From Pseudobutyrivibrio sp. (GTDB taxonomy: Bacteria; Bacillota; Clostridia; Lachnospirales; Lachnospiraceae): a DNA stretch of 58,108 bases. The first letter of the stretch is position 1, and each line of letters opens with the position of its first letter. Below, piece by piece: positions 24,067-31,710 of the stretch. A program made the position numbers and the translations under genes. The stretch covers positions 1-58,108 of the forward strand of contig JAIKWH010000016.1 in the NCBI GenBank assembly GCA_024684955.1, written 5' to 3'. The notes beneath the pieces were generated by a model. It did not search any database. It had not been told where the DNA came from and worked only from the letters and a program-made list of their open reading frames with translations.

Positions 24067-25650
24067 TTATTTAGGTGAAGCAACGCTTACCATGTGGTCG
24101 TACCACTTTCCCTTTGTTCCTATTAGAGCACATTCAAACTCAGTGTCAAGTTTTTCAACAGGGATTGTAAAAGAATTAACTTCCTCACTGGTACCATCAT
24201 CATAGCTTACCTCTGCCACCTCTGGCATCAACCAGTTGGCCTCATCCTCTTCAGCATCCGCTGCTGTTCCCAGGTAGAGGTTTAAAATATTTTTGCTGGT
24301 CAAATTGATGGTGATTTCCATGCTGCCATCCTCAGCAACAGTGAGCACTCCCATTCCATTGTCAGCGTCGTTTACATGAAACATTCCAGAGTCTGTATTA
24401 AATGCCGCCTGGTACTGGCCTGGCTCAAGGCTAACAGCAGCTTCCTCTTCTGCTAAAGCCATAGGCTCACCATCAATTGCAGCCTTTACATGGTCTACAT
24501 ACATTTCCTGGACCTGAGGGATTTCTCCTAGTCCTGCAATCTGGCAATCTACTGTCTCAAATCCAGCAGCCTTAAACATTGAAAGCCAAGAGTCATCATC
24601 AGAGCCTGCCATATCATTATTTGCATGGTCACCAGCCACAACCATAAGTGGGCGGAGGATTGCCTTTGTATATCCTGCCTCCTGTACAGCCTTGATGATA
24701 TTCTCGCAAGAGGTCTCCTCTGGCTCCCCTTCTACTGTACCAATAAATACATTGTCATAGCCTAACTCATCAATAGCAGTCTGCATCTGAGAATATGTAA
24801 CCTTTGCTGTATGGCTAGTGCCATGGCCCATAAATACAAATGCTGTAGAATTGTCTGCGGCCTCATCCAGGCTCTCAAATGCTCCCTGACTAACAGCCTC
24901 AGCAGTGATTGCCTTTGCAACCTCAATCTTATCTTCATTAATTACGCTGGCGTCATTGCCAACAGGTCCAAGAAGAGGCTCAGCAACTTTGATTACCTCA
25001 AATTTGTCTACTCTAGCGCTAACTGCATCTATCAGTTCATCATACTCAGCCCCATGCATCAAATGGGTAGGGAGAATAACAAGTTCCTTTACCCCATTTG
25101 CCTCAGCCCTATCCAATGCCTGATTCATATTGTCAATTTTCTCATTATCCCTAGCCTGTATATGGTTGATAATAATCTGAGAGGTAAAGGCACGTCTTAC
25201 AGAGTAATCTGGGCAGGCCTCTGCTACAGCCTTTTCTACTGCGCTAATATCCTTTGCTCTGCTGTCATTAAATGATGTACCAAAACTTACAACCAGGATT
25301 TCCTTGTCGCCGATTTCATCTCCATTTAATGGGTCGTCTGCACTGGCATCACCGGTATCTCTACCAAAATAATCTGGGTCAGCAAACTCGCCCTCCACCA
25401 GTTCCTTCTGGGCATCTGTCAGATTATCCCATCCAGCCTTTGCTGCAGCACAAGCTGCATCCGTTTCTTCCGTCCAATCCTGCACATAGATTGCATCGAT
25501 AAGTGCAGCCACCTCATCAGCTGCCGCCTGATCATCCACCACTTCTGTTGTTACAGAATCAGTTTCCTCAATCTGATCAACCTTTGCTGTGCCGCAGGCG
25601 CTGAGCATCATGCAAAGGGCACTTGTTAGAACTAGTAATTTCTTTTTCAT
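24067..25650 (-). CDS. cbiK: Exported sirohydrochlorin cobaltochelatase lipoprotein (CbiK) with C-terminal beta domain
   Basis: 527 residues. A lipoprotein signal ends in LSAC (Cys19). Residues about 40-90 form a helical segment (LTDAQKELVEGEFA) of a type common in clostridial surface proteins. The chelatase core spans about 115-400: ILVVSFGTSFNDSR, VILPTHLMHGAEYDEL with His196/199, and LMVVAGDHANND with His342, comparable to the conserved histidines of CbiK. Residues about 413-527 are beta-rich and resemble the N-terminal domain of the next gene's product. CbiK inserts cobalt into sirohydrochlorin. Anchoring outside the membrane is the odd feature. First gene after the riboswitch; AGGAGG precedes the ATG. 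Confidence 0.87.
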   Translation of the reverse strand: MKKKLLVLTSALCMMLSACGTAKVDQIEETDSVTTEVVDDQAAADEVAALIDAIYVQDWTEETDAACAAAKAGWDNLTDAQKELVEGEFADPDYFGRDTGDASADDPLNGDEIGDKEILVVSFGTSFNDSRAKDISAVEKAVAEACPDYSVRRAFTSQIIINHIQARDNEKIDNMNQALDRAEANGVKELVILPTHLMHGAEYDELIDAVSARVDKFEVIKVAEPLLGPVGNDASVINEDKIEVAKAITAEAVSQGAFESLDEAADNSTAFVFMGHGTSHTAKVTYSQMQTAIDELGYDNVFIGTVEGEPEETSCENIIKAVQEAGYTKAILRPLMVVAGDHANNDMAGSDDDSWLSMFKAAGFETVDCQIAGLGEIPQVQEMYVDHVKAAIDGEPMALAEEEAAVSLEPGQYQAAFNTDSGMFHVNDADNGMGVLTVAEDGSMEITINLTSKNILNLYLGTAADAEEDEANWLMPEVAEVSYDDGTSEEVNSFTIPVEKLDTEFECALIGTKGKWYDHMVSVASPK

Positions 25651-25720: not shown

Positions 25721-25800
25721 AAAATCAGAAAAATATAGCCATCAAAATAAAGCGATAGCAGTATATAAGTAAGATTCGAGGTCCGCAAATCTAATCTTGT

Positions 25801-25955
25801 AATTTAGGCAGGTCTCCTGACTTCGATCATCATCTGCATTCCCTTCCCAGTTTCCCAGTGATATAAATGCAAACTCCCTAACACAGTGACGGCTTCGCTC
25901 CGGATTCTCACCGGATTCCCTTTTCACCCAAGGCATGCGCTTGGACACCTAAATC
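25801..25955 (-). promoter_or_regulatory. Cobalamin riboswitch (B12 element)
   Basis: The minus strand carries the conserved cobalamin aptamer blocks in order: the 5' P1 strand TTTAGGTG; AAAAGGGAATCCGGTGAGAA and CCGGAGCGAAGCCGTCACTG; then a CACTGGGAAACTGGGAAGG stretch; and finally GAAGTCAGGAGACCTGCC with the closing CCTAAA strand of P1. The terminator at 25700-25720 follows. It lies 150 bases upstream of cbiK and should repress cbiK-btuFCD-cbiP-cbiC when adenosyl- or other cobalamins are abundant. Confidence 0.95.
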
Positions 25956-25977
25956 CATATATATAATTATCTAGGAT

Positions 25978-26006
25978 AAGTTAACATTAGTCCTCTTTAA
26001 TGTCAA
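25978..26006 (-). promoter_or_regulatory. Candidate promoter for the riboswitch-led cobalamin operon
   Basis: On the minus strand TTGACA (26001-26006) is followed after 17 bases by TAACTT (25978-25983), which would start transcription close to the 5' end of the aptamer. The -35 box is perfect but the -10 is poor; AT-rich hexamers a little further downstream are alternatives. The -35 lies inside the 3' end of the upstream GTPase gene. Confidence 0.4.
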
Positions 26007-28536
26007 ACATTTCCCTCAGTTCTTTTGCCTTTCTCTCTACCTCCTCAATAAATTCTCTAGAGGAAATGAGATGGGCCCCTGCCCCTCTGATAATAATTTG
26101 CTCCAGACCATCAGAGGTGACCACTGTAATGTCATATTTTTTGCCATGCTCGTGAGTAAATCTCTCTATGTAGGCATCGGCTGTCTGGGCCTCAGCAGTA
26201 AATACCTGGTGGATATTTAGATAGTCTCCAAACTCCACCGGATGCCCCTTTAATTTGTATGCATCAAAGACAGCAATAACATTATAGTCCGTCATGGCCT
26301 TGTAATTGCTGAGAATATCTAATAATTTTCCTCTGGCCCCATCCAAATTTACATCTAAAACCTCTTTCAGCTGTGGCCACGCATAGATCAAATTGTAGCC
26401 ATCCACCAGGAGGAATTTCTCCCTAGGCTTTACTTCCTTGGGAGCCTGATAGACATAATCTGAATCCTTTCTTCTCACTCCACCACTGCCATACCTATTC
26501 CAGCCCTTTTTAGGATTTTTCCCTCCGTTGGAATGGGTGGCAGAATATAAAATGGCATCTATCTCATCTGGGCCTAATGCCATATCCAGTTTTGAAACCA
26601 AATCCTTATTAATAGGAATATTGCTTTCCTCTACTGCCCTTTTCTCCTTTAATGTAGGCACATGACAATTATCGTATACCTGATCAAAGGGAACTATGAC
26701 AGCAGCCCCGTGGGAGCAAAAAACAGATGAGGAAGGATTTTCTATATCTGACTCTGGGTCATATAAAATATCCTCCATTATTTCATCAGGCTTTTGGGCC
26801 TTCATATAACCATTAAATTCAAAATCTATCCTGCCCTGACCCTTGGAATAGGCCAAAAGATTTGCCTGATAGTTCCTGATATTTTTGGCCGGTGCCAGGC
26901 CTTTTAGAATGGACCTGCCTCCCTCCTCGTATGGAGAATCAAAACTGCCACCCATCTCTGTAATGTCAGTCATGGCCCTGCCAATATATTCTCCTGGTAC
27001 ATTTAATTCAAAAGCAAAACCAGGCTCCAAAATAATAGTGCCGGCAGTCATAAGACCCTGCCTTATGGCCCTATAGGTGGCCTCCCTAAAGTCTCCACCC
27101 TCTGTGTGCTTTATGTGGGCCCTGCCTCCGATAATGGTAAATTTAATATCAGTAATAGGAGCGCCAATAGCAACTCCCCTATGTTCCTTTTCTAAAATAT
27201 GGGTCTTTATCAGCCTCTGCCAGTTCAGAGATAAATCATCTGTGGACACATCAGACTCCACCAGGATTCCAGAGCCTGCAGGCAGCGGCTCCATCAACAG
27301 GTGAACCTCTGCATAATGTCTGAGGGGCTCAAAGTGGCCTACTCCCTCCACTTTTGTTTCTAGTGTCTCCTTATATAAGACTCCTGTTTCTTTAAAGCCC
27401 ACCTTTATACCAAGACACTGGCTAATCCTCTGGGTAAGGATTTCCGTCTGGACCTGCCCCATCAAATTTATTTTTATCTGGTCTAATTTGTCGTCCCAAA
27501 CCACAGATAAAGATGGGTCCTCCTCATTTAGACTCAAAAGTTTGGGATACGCCACCCTAGGGTCTGTCCCATCTTCAAATATAATCTGATACTGGAGAAC
27601 AGGAATCAGCCTCAGGCCTGGTCTATCCTTTTCTGTTCCAAGGCCCTGTCCGCTAAATGTGGACTTTGGCCCTTTGAAAGCTACTATCTGGCCGGCAGAT
27701 GCCCGGTCTACCTGCTCGTATTTTGCTCCAGAATAAACCCTGATTTGATCTACCTTTTCCCCGTTTGGCAAAAGATCTTTTACACCTATAGCGCCAGAAG
27801 TAATCTTTACAAAGGAGAGTCTTGTATCTACACCCAGGCTTTCTATCTTATAGACCCTTCCTCCAAATTCATCTGAAGGATTCTTTTTTACCCCTGCCAG
27901 TTTGGATATGTAATCCATCAAAGGCTCTACCCCTTGATTCTTTAGGGCTGACCCCATAAATACTGGGAAAATTTTCCTGTCAAAGATAAGATTTGAAATA
28001 GTGTCAAATCCAAGGGTCCCAGTCTCTAAAAACTCATCCATGGCAATCTCATCCTCTGTTGCCATGGCCTCATAATCCTCTGGTAAAATGGCGGCGCCAG
28101 TCAGTTCTCTTTTAATATTGTCTAAAACCAAACGGTCCCTAGTCCCCTCCTGGTCCATCTTGTTTACGAAAATAATGGTAGGAATACGGTTTTCTGTCAG
28201 TAGTCTAAAGAGGGTCTTGGTGTGAGGCTGTACACCATCCGGTCCACTAATGAGCAGGATACATCCATCCAAAGCCCAAAGGGCCCTCTCTGTCTCAGTG
28301 GCAAAATCCACATGTCCCGGGGTGTCAAGCAGGGTAAGCCCAGCCCCATGATAAGAAAAGTTTGCCATCTTTGAAAAGATGGTAATGCCTCTGGCCTTTT
28401 CCTGACTGTCTGTATCTAGAAAGGCATCTCCATGGTCCACTCTGCCTGTGGCTGAGATTATCCCAGCATTATATAAAATTGCCTCAGAAAGGGTTGTCTT
28501 TCCCGCATCAACGTGAGCTAATATTCCCCAAACCAT
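25987..28536 (-). CDS. TetM-like ribosomal-protection GTPase fused to a YacP/Rae1-type NYN nuclease domain
   Basis: 849 residues. The first about 650 are a translation GTPase of the Tet ribosomal-protection/EF-G group: G1 AHVDAGKT near residue 7, G2 ARGITIF, G3 DTPGHVDFA, G4 IIFVNKMDQ, and late domains with ITDIKFTIIGGRAH and ELNVPGEYIGRAMTDI. A charged linker (NGGKNPKKGWNRYGSGG) leads to a NYN_YacP domain at about 703-849: LLVDGYNLIYAWP (Asp712), VFDAYKLKG (Asp758), ADAYIERF (Asp787), VTSDGLEQ (Asp809). Bacillus YacP (Rae1) is an A-site mRNA endonuclease. Start supported by AGGAGA. Confidence 0.9.
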   Translation of the reverse strand: MVWGILAHVDAGKTTLSEAILYNAGIISATGRVDHGDAFLDTDSQEKARGITIFSKMANFSYHGAGLTLLDTPGHVDFATETERALWALDGCILLISGPDGVQPHTKTLFRLLTENRIPTIIFVNKMDQEGTRDRLVLDNIKRELTGAAILPEDYEAMATEDEIAMDEFLETGTLGFDTISNLIFDRKIFPVFMGSALKNQGVEPLMDYISKLAGVKKNPSDEFGGRVYKIESLGVDTRLSFVKITSGAIGVKDLLPNGEKVDQIRVYSGAKYEQVDRASAGQIVAFKGPKSTFSGQGLGTEKDRPGLRLIPVLQYQIIFEDGTDPRVAYPKLLSLNEEDPSLSVVWDDKLDQIKINLMGQVQTEILTQRISQCLGIKVGFKETGVLYKETLETKVEGVGHFEPLRHYAEVHLLMEPLPAGSGILVESDVSTDDLSLNWQRLIKTHILEKEHRGVAIGAPITDIKFTIIGGRAHIKHTEGGDFREATYRAIRQGLMTAGTIILEPGFAFELNVPGEYIGRAMTDITEMGGSFDSPYEEGGRSILKGLAPAKNIRNYQANLLAYSKGQGRIDFEFNGYMKAQKPDEIMEDILYDPESDIENPSSSVFCSHGAAVIVPFDQVYDNCHVPTLKEKRAVEESNIPINKDLVSKLDMALGPDEIDAILYSATHSNGGKNPKKGWNRYGSGGVRRKDSDYVYQAPKEVKPREKFLLVDGYNLIYAWPQLKEVLDVNLDGARGKLLDILSNYKAMTDYNVIAVFDAYKLKGHPVEFGDYLNIHQVFTAEAQTADAYIERFTHEHGKKYDITVVTSDGLEQIIIRGAGAHLISSREFIEEVERKAKELREMFDIKED

Positions 28537-28556
28537 AACATGTCTCCTATATTATA

Positions 28557-29879
28557 TTATCCCAGCAGTCTAAGACCCTTTGGGAAATGGTTTTTTATCT
28601 GTCCCTTTACAGCCTTGCCCCATCCTATAGAATATCCATCTACAAGCACTAGGGTCCATCCATCCTTTACATCTCCTGTCAGAGACTGGCCTTTTAGGTA
28701 ATAATTGGCCTCTTTGCTGCCAGATGATAAATTAAATGTGTTTTTAACTTCGCTATCTTTTAGTGCAAGAGCAAGGGCGTGGCTAGGCTCAAACCTATTC
28801 TTTTTGATGGTGCCTAGGAAGAGTCCGCCCCTAATTATATGAAGTCCACTCAAGTCCGGACATCCCTCAGGCAGTCTGTAAAGCAGGTCATTTATTAGGA
28901 GCAGATTGTCCTCAATACTGATATTAAGGGTCTCCTTTTGAAATGTTAAATAGTCATTTAATAATGCCTTATTTATGGCTTTTAATTTGGCCTTGGGCCT
29001 GTTTGCCCTTATTTCATCAGAACTGCCATCATCTGCTTTTTCTAAAAGGGCAACATAATGACCCTCACCCTTTACCTCATGAGGCCACAGCCTCTTTTCT
29101 TTTATGAGAGTCATATCTGGATGGCGACTAATAAAGGCAGCCACTGCCTCCTCGTCCTCCTCTTTTGAGAAGGTGCAGGTGCTATAGCACAGTCTGCCTC
29201 CAGGGATCAGCATGAGATATGCATTATCTAATATATCCCCCTGCCTTGCTGCGCACATGGTCACATTTTCCAGGGACCACTCATCTGCCGCCTCATGGTT
29301 CTTTCTAAACATTCCCTCTCCCGAGCATGGTGCATCCACCATTATCTTGTCAAAGTAATAGTGAAATTTAGAAGCTAATTTGTCTGGGTATTCAGAAGTG
29401 ACAATGGCATTTACTATGCCCAGCCTCTCCACATTCTCGGAAAGAATCTTTGCCCTGTTTTTCATAGGCTCATTGGATACTAAAAGCCCCTGCCCCATCA
29501 GTTTACCTGCAATCTGGGTGGACTTGCCACCAGGTGCTGCACATAGGTCCAGGCAATAATCACCAGGCCTAGGGTCTAAAAACTCTACAGGCAACTGGGC
29601 GCTGGCATCTTGGATATAGAATAGACCAGCCATGTGGTATGGATGGAGACCAGGCCTAGTGGCCTCATCATAGTAGTAGCCATTAGGGCTCCAATCCACC
29701 TGGCCTGTCAGCATAGGCTCCATAGTCTTTATAGCCTGAGAGTCTGCCTTTACAGGATTAAACCTGAGAGCCGATATTTTATTTTCCTCATAAGAAGACA
29801 AAAACGCATGGAAGTCAGGACCTAAGTCCTGCTCCATGCGATTTACAAAATCAATTGGTAAAAATGAAATGTCTGACAT
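28557..29879 (-). CDS. rsmF: RsmF-type rRNA (cytosine-C5) methyltransferase, NOL1/NOP2/Sun family
   Basis: 440 residues. The SAM-binding motif is LDLCAAPGGKSTQIAGKL near residue 108. IMVDAPCSGEGMFRK near 175 holds the first catalytic cysteine, and LCYSTCTFSKEEDEEAV near 230 holds the second. The C-terminal third (RGGLFLGTIKKNRFEPSHALALALK, split here only for reference) is a PUA-like RNA-binding region typical of RsmF/YebU-type enzymes. It should methylate a cytosine in 16S rRNA, though the exact position cannot be read. It overlaps the argS stop by one base and precedes the TetM-NYN gene by 20 bases, so three translation genes are co-transcribed. Confidence 0.88.
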   Translation of the reverse strand: MSDISFLPIDFVNRMEQDLGPDFHAFLSSYEENKISALRFNPVKADSQAIKTMEPMLTGQVDWSPNGYYYDEATRPGLHPYHMAGLFYIQDASAQLPVEFLDPRPGDYCLDLCAAPGGKSTQIAGKLMGQGLLVSNEPMKNRAKILSENVERLGIVNAIVTSEYPDKLASKFHYYFDKIMVDAPCSGEGMFRKNHEAADEWSLENVTMCAARQGDILDNAYLMLIPGGRLCYSTCTFSKEEDEEAVAAFISRHPDMTLIKEKRLWPHEVKGEGHYVALLEKADDGSSDEIRANRPKAKLKAINKALLNDYLTFQKETLNISIEDNLLLINDLLYRLPEGCPDLSGLHIIRGGLFLGTIKKNRFEPSHALALALKDSEVKNTFNLSSGSKEANYYLKGQSLTGDVKDGWTLVLVDGYSIGWGKAVKGQIKNHFPKGLRLLG

Positions 29880-31639
29880 TACATACGCTCCGGTGCCTTG
29901 AATCCAAGGAGGTCAATTGACTGCTCCAAAATATCTCTTGTCAGTGTAAGTAGTTTTAAGTAGCTTGCCTTTCTTGTCTGGTCTTCCTCTGCCAAAATCT
30001 TGGTGTCATGATAGAACCTGTTAAAGGCATTGGCAAGGTCGTAAATATAAGCACAAATCTTGTGTGGTGCCATATCCTCATATGCACTGCTAAGTGCTGC
30101 CATAAATTTGGTAAGCTCTAGGTGCAATGCCTTCTCAGAATCAGAATGTGCTGGAAGAATTGTTGCCAAAGCATCTACATCTTTCGCCTTGTTGAGGATG
30201 GATTTGCATCTAACGATTGTGTAAAGAATATATGGGCCTGTGTTGCCCTCGTTTGATGTAAATCTGTCTATATCAAAAATATAATCCTTTGAAGCCTGGT
30301 TTGATAAGTCACCATATTTGATGGCCGAAAGGGCAACGACAGAAGCTGTCTTTTCAGCCTCCTCATCAGACATAGTGCCGTTTTCTTTAATCTTTTCCAG
30401 CATCTTGTCCTCTACCTCTTTTAGCAGGTATTCAAGACGCATAACTCCGCCCTGTCTAGTCTTAAATGGCTTGCCGTCCTTGCCATTCATAGTACCAAAA
30501 CCAACGAAATATAGGTTTTTGTCTGCAGGTACGATGCCAGTCTTTTTAGCACATCTAAATACCTGGGTAAAGTATAATTCCTGTCTCTTATCAACCACGT
30601 AGATAACAGAATCAGGATTGTAATCCTGCATACGCCATACCAGGGTAGCAAGGTCTGTAGTATTGTAAAGGGACGCACCATCTGACTTTAAAATCATACA
30701 TGGTGGCACCTCTTTGGTATCAGTCTCCTCTTTTACATCTACAACCAGGGCTCCCTCTGAAATATAGGCAAAGCCATCATCTTTCATCTTTTGTACCATG
30801 TCAGGGATGTATGGCTGAGCATCACTTTCACCCTTCCACAAATCAAAGGTAACATCCAGTTTTTCGTAATTGCGCTTTAAATCAGAAACTGACACATTGA
30901 GAATGTGTGAAAGCAGGGCCTGATATCCCTTTCTGCCGTGCTGCAACTCATATGTAGCAGTCATAGCAGCCTCCTTGTATGCCTCATCCTCCTTTGACTT
31001 GCCAGAGGCGCATGGATAAATCTCCTCCAGCTCTGAGATTGTAAATGGTGGCTCACTAGGATACTCACCATCATAGTTTTCATCAAAGTACACAAGCTCA
31101 GGTTTTCTCAGTTTTAACTCTGTAATGATAAGTCCCATCTGAAGACCCCAGTCTCCCAGATGCACATCACCGATTACCTCATCACCCATAAAACGGGCAG
31201 TTCTCTTTATAGACTCTCCGATAATGGCAGAACGCAAATGACCTACGTGTAAAGGCTTTGCCACATTAGGTCCGCCGTAATCAATCATAATCTTTTTAGG
31301 GTTTGAAACCTTTTCTACCCCAAATCTATCCTTGTCTGATGCCATCTCAGAAACAAACTTTGCCAAGAATTCGTCAGATAAATCAATATTTAAAAATCCT
31401 GGAGGGCATGCCTCACATTTTGCAAACATCTCGTTGCCAGAAAGCTTTTGGGCAACCTCTGTTGCAATTGCTATAGGTGCCTTTTTGTATTCCTTTGCTG
31501 CAGCAAGAGCGCCGTTGCACTGGAACTGGCAAAGGTCCGGTCTATTTGAAAGGCTGACCATGCCGTATTTCTCATCATATCCGCAAGCCACAAAACCTGC
31601 TACCACTTCTTCTTTTATCTGTTGAAGTATCTCTTTCAT
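29879..31639 (-). CDS. argS: Arginyl-tRNA synthetase
   Basis: Class I synthetase, 586 residues from the chosen start. The HIGH-type motif is KPLHVGHLRSAIIGE. The ArgS-typical replacement of KMSKS is present in GFGTMNGKDGKPFKTR. The C-terminal DALR anticodon-binding domain ends DLLGFKAPERM. A frame-compatible start exists 13 codons upstream, but the ATG at 31639 has GGAGG four bases before it and gives the usual ArgS N-terminal additional domain start (MKEILQQIKEEV). It heads a probable argS-rsmF-TetM/NYN transcript. Confidence 0.95.
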   Translation of the reverse strand: MKEILQQIKEEVVAGFVACGYDEKYGMVSLSNRPDLCQFQCNGALAAAKEYKKAPIAIATEVAQKLSGNEMFAKCEACPPGFLNIDLSDEFLAKFVSEMASDKDRFGVEKVSNPKKIMIDYGGPNVAKPLHVGHLRSAIIGESIKRTARFMGDEVIGDVHLGDWGLQMGLIITELKLRKPELVYFDENYDGEYPSEPPFTISELEEIYPCASGKSKEDEAYKEAAMTATYELQHGRKGYQALLSHILNVSVSDLKRNYEKLDVTFDLWKGESDAQPYIPDMVQKMKDDGFAYISEGALVVDVKEETDTKEVPPCMILKSDGASLYNTTDLATLVWRMQDYNPDSVIYVVDKRQELYFTQVFRCAKKTGIVPADKNLYFVGFGTMNGKDGKPFKTRQGGVMRLEYLLKEVEDKMLEKIKENGTMSDEEAEKTASVVALSAIKYGDLSNQASKDYIFDIDRFTSNEGNTGPYILYTIVRCKSILNKAKDVDALATILPAHSDSEKALHLELTKFMAALSSAYEDMAPHKICAYIYDLANAFNRFYHDTKILAEEDQTRKASYLKLLTLTRDILEQSIDLLGFKAPERM

Positions 31640-31710
31640 ATTTACCTCCGAACCTAAAAATCCTAATAATTCTACCACAAATGCCGGTATGATTCTAGGC
31701 TTAGGCCCCC

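Follow-up and report, generated by a model that had tools for sequence, protein, structure and literature searches.

A translational GTPase fused to a Rae1-type NYN nuclease domain in Pseudobutyrivibrio, and its apparent replacement of stand-alone Rae1

The contig JAIKWH010000016.1 of Pseudobutyrivibrio sp. (assembly GCA_024684955.1), considered here as a window that is the whole 58,108-nucleotide stretch analysed, carries a gene that fuses a translational GTPase to an NYN/YacP domain of the kind found in the nuclease Rae1 of Bacillus subtilis (Table 1). In that organism Rae1 reportedly attacks mRNA in the A site of the ribosome (PMC12320835, PMC6613710). We consider it somewhat better than an even bet (probability roughly 0.55) that in the fusion a Rae1-type nuclease has moved onto a dedicated ribosome-binding GTPase and cuts mRNA on stalled ribosomes. 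The strongest evidence, in our opinion, is the near mutual exclusion of fused and stand-alone YacP together with an empty slot where stand-alone yacP often lies; this seems to be a genomic replacement of Rae1. The architecture was already described in 2015, and the window protein is a further member; the evidence for Rae1 replacement is what the present analysis adds.

The distribution of the two parts was surveyed in a class sample of 293 genomes (the class being taken to be Clostridia), searched with models of the GTPase and of YacP. The GTPase part (E ≤1e-40) was found in 123 genomes and YacP in 192, in 191 of them over the cut-off. Both parts were fused in 103 genomes, as 96 frames of at least 840 residues and 7 that are broken or run off the contig; G541, with YacP in a 313-residue frame at a contig edge, was counted as fused, which brings the genomes with a fused YacP to 104. 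A second, stand-alone YacP over the cut-off is present in just one of these (G661), and second matches in G507, G558, and G590 fall under it. The fusion is also the sole YacP match of the host, whose genome is 86% complete. The GTPase part was found in 27 of 348 genomes of a phylum sample. With 103 of 293 class genomes carrying it, the fusion resembles a housekeeping gene more than an acquired one.

The second component of the apparent replacement concerns the place of yacP in the chromosome. In B. subtilis, yacO (rlmB) and rae1 are reported to be adjacent and co-transcribed (PMC6613710). Among 23 stand-alone yacP loci, drawn from the order sample's 30 places with the best YacP scores, a strict pattern finds rlmB (named by TIGR00186) directly upstream in 15, and a sigma gene downstream in 14 of these; a sigma gene also stands beside yacP in two more loci, L093 and L094. 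Host contig C48 has the order cysS-mrnC-rlmB-sigma gene, with a 4-nucleotide overlap between rlmB and the sigma gene, and no yacP; the slot genes other than rlmB are taken, from their motifs and from known gene families, to be cysS, mrnC, and a sigma-H-like gene. The slot was surveyed in 31 fused genomes, namely the host and 30 chosen by hand, by reading 1.2–1.5 kb downstream of rlmB. No yacP was found within that distance in any of the 31. The sigma gene follows rlmB in 15 of them, host included, and the gap between the two is at most 332 nucleotides, too small for yacP, in 12 of the 15.

Sequence and fold agree that the nuclease part is of the Rae1 type. Against solved structures, the only sequence matches with E <1 are the B. 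subtilis YacP/Rae1 entries 5mq8 and 5mq9 (E 8.7e-20). A Foldseek search with the NYN domain, folded alone for this comparison, returned the same two entries (E 9.5e-10 to 6e-8, root-mean-square deviation 1.8–3.8), the best other match having E 0.017. NYN_YacP (PF05991) matches at 154.3 bits vs. a cut-off of 24.6 (E 3.8e-45). The sequence-only reading had proposed the fusion of a translation GTPase with a complete Rae1-type NYN domain, and this is borne out by the open reading frame, by Pfam, and by the matches of sequence and fold. The PF05991 match covers positions 1–138 of 166, i.e., the full C-terminal tail of Rae1 is not present. Such tail loss is frequent: in a count made by hand, with fragments G460 and G639 excluded, the match stops at or before position 158 of 166 in 64 of 103 fused domains vs. 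1 of 88 stand-alone domains (Fisher p 4e-22), the fused genes apparently forming one clade, so that the rows are not independent. R166P, a missense change near the C-terminus of B. subtilis Rae1, is reported among suppressors read as loss of function (PMC6613710). The GTPase body may thus have taken over the role of the lost tail.

In a tree of NYN domains, one branch (support 90/90, not starred) separates 27 fused from 23 stand-alone rows; as judged from these sequences, a single fusion event is favoured, not proved. The same tree contains a supported group of stand-alone YacP proteins from the host's own family (L098, L105, L108, L109, and L111), and the corresponding five genomes (G335, G358, G193, G093, and G262) carry an unfused GTPase. 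Fission of the fusion and a separate transfer are both possible origins of this group. In L098 and L105, which read VFDGY, yacP is not in the rlmB-sigma slot.

A scan of genome contigs gave 180 stretches with 173 relatives, the best 80 of which were aligned with the window protein (81 rows); the best-matching loci are from Pseudobutyrivibrio, with 65–71% identity to it. The aspartates that had been placed at about 712, 758, 787, and 809 are at exactly these positions, and the suggested check of their conservation among fusion homologs was passed: D712 is kept in all 81 rows and each of the others in 80, the sole row without D758, D787, and D809 being L023, whose frame ends at 729 residues. These aspartates line up with those of four stand-alone YacP proteins. 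In the GTPase domain, GKTT and DTPGH are kept in 81 of 81 rows, as are N125, K126, and D128 of NKMD, with M127 in 71. The G motifs are complete and are followed by EF-G-like domains, as expected of a translational GTPase of the EF-G/Tet type; Pfam places EFG_IV at residues 386–498 and EFG_C at 502–582, and the matches to EFG_III and EF-G_D2 fall under their cut-offs. A fusion by chance or misassembly is ruled out by its recurrence in 80 other loci (in one of them, L023, the end is broken), and a plus-strand reading of 25987–28536 is interrupted by stops. C607 and H625 of the C-terminal extension are kept in 81 of 81 rows. At residues 580–582 (26791–26799) the window protein reads A-Q-K, whereas the other 80 of the 81 rows have Cys580, most of them as C-H-N. 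As far as the alignment suggests, the Cys580 region, C607, and H625 may together make up a metal site, degenerate in the window protein, within the C-terminal extension.

The GTPase body is related to the Tet proteins and is no typical member of them. By sequence, its closest solved relatives are TetO (E 6.9e-76) and TetM (E 2.9e-74), with EF-G next at 3e-62; identity to TetM/TetO is about 30–33% over 68% of the fusion protein. It scores 400 bits with the tet_protect model (cut-off 775), 292 with tet_protect_M_W (1100), and 247 with tet_protect_M (1420), and a search of the host's own genome found no Tet model over its cut-off. The tip of domain IV reads HIKHTEGGDFR in place of the YYSPVSTPADFR of TetM/TetO: Lys476/His477 align with Pro509/Val510 of TetM, and the SPVST tip is absent. 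HxKHT occurs at the tip in 81 of 81 aligned rows. The strict form HxKHTEGGDFR was found in 21 of 30 class loci fetched, KHTQGGDFR or KHTDGGDFR in 8, and QHTQGGDFR in 1, whereas true Tet loci of the same bacterial family kept YYSPVSTPADFR in 10 of the 10 fetched (from 14 matches in 10 of 100 family genomes). A quick-mode tree of GTPases, with long branches, sets 3 true Tet rows apart from the fusion GTPase family; it needs two changes between fused and single forms and does not settle the order of events. What stands of the earlier label "Tet-type GTPase" is the intact motifs and the EF-G/Tet-like body; membership in the Tet proteins in the strict sense does not stand, given the scores and the different tip. 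The body may belong to a distinct lineage of translational GTPases.

The family of the fusion GTPase also has unfused members. In the order sample, the unfused relatives L120–L139 have 639–682 residues and end before the linker (L124 is shorter, with 451), and HxKHT is at the tip in 20 of 20. They share with the fusion the body, the HT-GGDFR-type tip, and an extension of the SVFC...H type, and differ from it in ending, at about 640–680 residues, before the linker and without NYN; the relatives in Bacilli (Lactobacillus salivarius and Paenibacillus) have a looser HT-GGDFR tip. A Monoglobus member is annotated as a "translation factor GTPase family protein", and the L. salivarius relative (L180, 1968–3902), which adjoins a copy of rpsN and a putative metal homeostasis gene, as a TetM/TetW/TetO/TetS resistance protein. 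A tetracycline-resistance label on these relatives is supported neither by the tip nor by the model scores of the members scanned, and it could mislead resistance surveys. In the class sample, 20 of the 293 genomes have an unfused GTPase, 13 of them with a stand-alone YacP and 7 without a YacP match, one of the latter (G585) with a broken frame of 293 residues. In the order sample an unfused GTPase (E ≤2.3e-54) was present in 23 of 63 genomes with stand-alone YacP, hand-picked from 91, vs. 0 of 17 without YacP; in a further 6 of the 63 the GTPase matches only at 6e-26 to 8e-29, an EF-G-like level. This co-occurrence is not relied on, since it weakened in the class sample.

From the GTPase motifs, the aspartates, the Rae1-like sequence and fold, the near exclusion of a second YacP, the empty slot in the host, the frequent tail loss, and the Tet-unlike tip, all of which are computed, we infer ribosome binding, coupling to GTP, cutting in the A site, and a role in rescue. 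The GTPase body would bind the factor site and the A site of stalled or paused ribosomes, in which the A site is unoccupied; once GTP is hydrolysed, domain IV would leave the decoding site. A flexible linker of roughly 80 residues would then let the NYN domain reach the exposed mRNA and cut it in or near the A site, and the cut mRNA would feed mRNA decay and ribosome rescue. Since the GTPase that carries the nuclease probably enters the A site as well, a sequence of steps suggests itself: binding, GTP hydrolysis, withdrawal of domain IV, and then the cut. A stricter version of this scheme, in which a non-Tet GTPase lineage with the HT-GGDFR tip senses the open A site, captured Rae1 once in Clostridia, and became its obligatory, GTP-gated means of delivery, with consequent loss of the stand-alone form from the Rae1 operon, is to be held more tentatively, at somewhat less than even odds.

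Several points weigh against a Rae1-type nuclease carried and used by a ribosome-binding GTPase. Ribosome binding, GTP use, and cleavage are all predictions, and the A site is the presumed place of both domain IV and Rae1, which cannot act there at the same time. Given the completeness of the host genome, a second YacP could have been missed there. In 3 of the 15 fused genomes with the rlmB-sigma order, the gap of 512–567 nucleotides is roomy enough for yacP, the sole YacP match in these genomes being the fused one; in 16 of the 31 surveyed, the rlmB locus has no sigma gene by the pattern used and is uninformative on the slot. Moreover, the losses of tail and slot are shared by descent, so that the counts are not independent events. 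Finally, an unfused GTPase is found in 13 of 88 genomes with stand-alone YacP only vs. 7 of 101 without a YacP match (Fisher p 0.10); with no clear tie to stand-alone YacP in this class sample, the GTPase has some function apart from Rae1.

The 20 class genomes with an unfused GTPase, 7 of them without any YacP match, would also suit a looser arrangement, in which the NYN domain works as Rae1 does in Bacillus, the GTPase pursues a separate task, and the fusion raises local concentration with no gating by GTP. The predicted structure is compatible with this: the predicted local distance difference test (pLDDT) score is <50 at residues 640–655 and 667–701, with a short helix (656–667) between, and the linker is long and variable, 75–133 residues in the 71 of 81 sequences measurable by pattern. 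G661, moreover, retains both a fused and a stand-alone YacP. Still, the near absence of a second YacP beside the fusion and the frequently missing Rae1 tail suggest that the nuclease depends on the body, and we regard mere tethering as unlikely. For the GTPase-driven nuclease, a linker predicted to be disordered means that the reach of the NYN domain need not be limiting, but also that its position is undefined. In the linker helix (26536–26571, minus strand), E658 is present in 77 of 81 sequences and I662 in 76; this predicted helix might be a docking motif.

The gene neighbourhood bears on another alternative. The sequence-only reading had taken co-transcribed argS and rsmF as support for a role in translation, an argument we have dropped: the argS-rsmF arrangement is limited to loci of the Pseudobutyrivibrio type. 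An rsmF relative lies near the fusion gene in 19 of the 22 loci L002–L023 and in none of the remaining 58, some of which stop a short way from the gene. No conserved neighbourhood was found beyond the genus, the commonest neighbour cluster (ABC-transporter-like by eye) occurring in only 10 of the 58 loci. In L004 and L018 a 288-residue open reading frame, probably of a membrane protein, lies between rsmF and the fusion, and is not at that place in the window. A cobalamin riboswitch (Rfam RF00174, 98 bits; 25790–25967, minus strand) separates the fusion gene from a CbiK-like gene at 24067–25650. The juxtaposition with rsmF in Pseudobutyrivibrio, and the usual neighbours of Rae1, mrnC and rlmB, which act on 23S rRNA, could point to maturation of rRNA or tRNA, with the GTPase in subunit assembly and the NYN domain as a trimming nuclease. 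With Rae1, the nearest characterised NYN protein, reported as a translation-dependent mRNA endonuclease and no rsmF relative near the gene in those 58 loci, such a role is more doubtful still.

The least probable alternative is antibiotic protection, i.e., expulsion of tetracycline or a similar A-site drug plus an RNase step: it was proposed for such proteins by Atkinson 2015 (PMC4342817) and fits the closeness to TetO/TetM, and it is countered by scores under all Tet cut-offs, by a tip that true Tet genes of the family do not share, by the presence of a true Tet gene alongside the fusion in at least two genomes, G283 and G271, and by a housekeeping-like distribution. At the tip, Pro509 of TetM is reported to overlap bound tetracycline (PMC7456112). 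The changed tip alone nevertheless does not exclude tetracycline release, since the TetM triple mutant S508A/P509A/V510A is reported to be active (PMC4750697). A role other than plain tetracycline resistance, as first suggested, looks likely.

It is instructive to compare the fusion with known systems. Yeast no-go decay, in which Hbs1/Dom34 operate with Cue2, likewise pairs GTPase-type rescue with an mRNA endonuclease at stalled ribosomes; there the proteins are separate and, as far as we know, not homologous to the fusion, and the likeness is one of working principle. B. subtilis Rae1 shares the NYN domain, the four aspartates, and the fold, and differs in being a separate protein with its tail, encoded next to yacO/rlmB, rather than a fused, tail-less domain encoded after rsmF. 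With TetM/TetO the likeness is confined to the GTPase and EF-G-like domains; the fusion has its own domain IV tip and C-terminal extension, the added nuclease, and scores far under the Tet cut-offs. Among the literature matches listed, which did not cover Leroy 2017 and Condon 2018 on Rae1, Atkinson 2015 was the only report to join both domains. It describes, as Tet proteins with a YacP-like NYN domain in ten clostridial species, the same domain combination in the same bacterial group, and suggests RNase-based resistance; the accessible parts of its text mention neither Rae1 nor the tip motif of the fused proteins nor the loss of stand-alone YacP. The accessible parts of Margus 2007 (PMC1780047) make no mention of NYN.

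Table 1. Features of the fusion gene and its immediate neighbours in the window.
Feature	Position	Strand	Basis or remark
Fusion gene, translational GTPase + NYN/YacP nuclease	25987..28536	minus	849 residues; open reading frame and Pfam
AGGAGA, ribosome-binding-site-like	28543..28548	minus	6 nucleotides ahead of ATG; by sequence
GTPase domain, residues 3–212, GKTT/DTPGH/NKMD	27901..28530	minus	Pfam GTP_EFTU E 2.8e-50; motifs conserved
EF-G/Tet-like domains II–V, residues 227–582	26791..27858	minus	
Domain IV tip HIKHTEGGDFR, residues 474–484	27085..27117	minus	alignment with TetM
C-terminal extension, residues 583–639, SVFC-HG...H	26620..26790	minus	common to fused and unfused relatives
Linker, residues 640–701	26434..26619	minus	structure prediction (pLDDT)
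NYN/YacP (Rae1-type) nuclease domain, residues 709–844, D712 D758 D787 D809	26005..26412	minus	
rsmF	28557..29879	minus	neighbour, 20 nucleotides upstream of fusion gene
argS	29879..31678	minus	neighbour, 1-nucleotide overlap with rsmF

How Rae1 gets to ribosomes has, to our knowledge, no settled answer. The covalent fusion names a probable ribosome-binding GTPase as a candidate delivery factor for Rae1, and the question thereby becomes testable. Moreover, given how common it is in the class sample, the fusion may contribute importantly to translation-coupled mRNA decay in clostridia.
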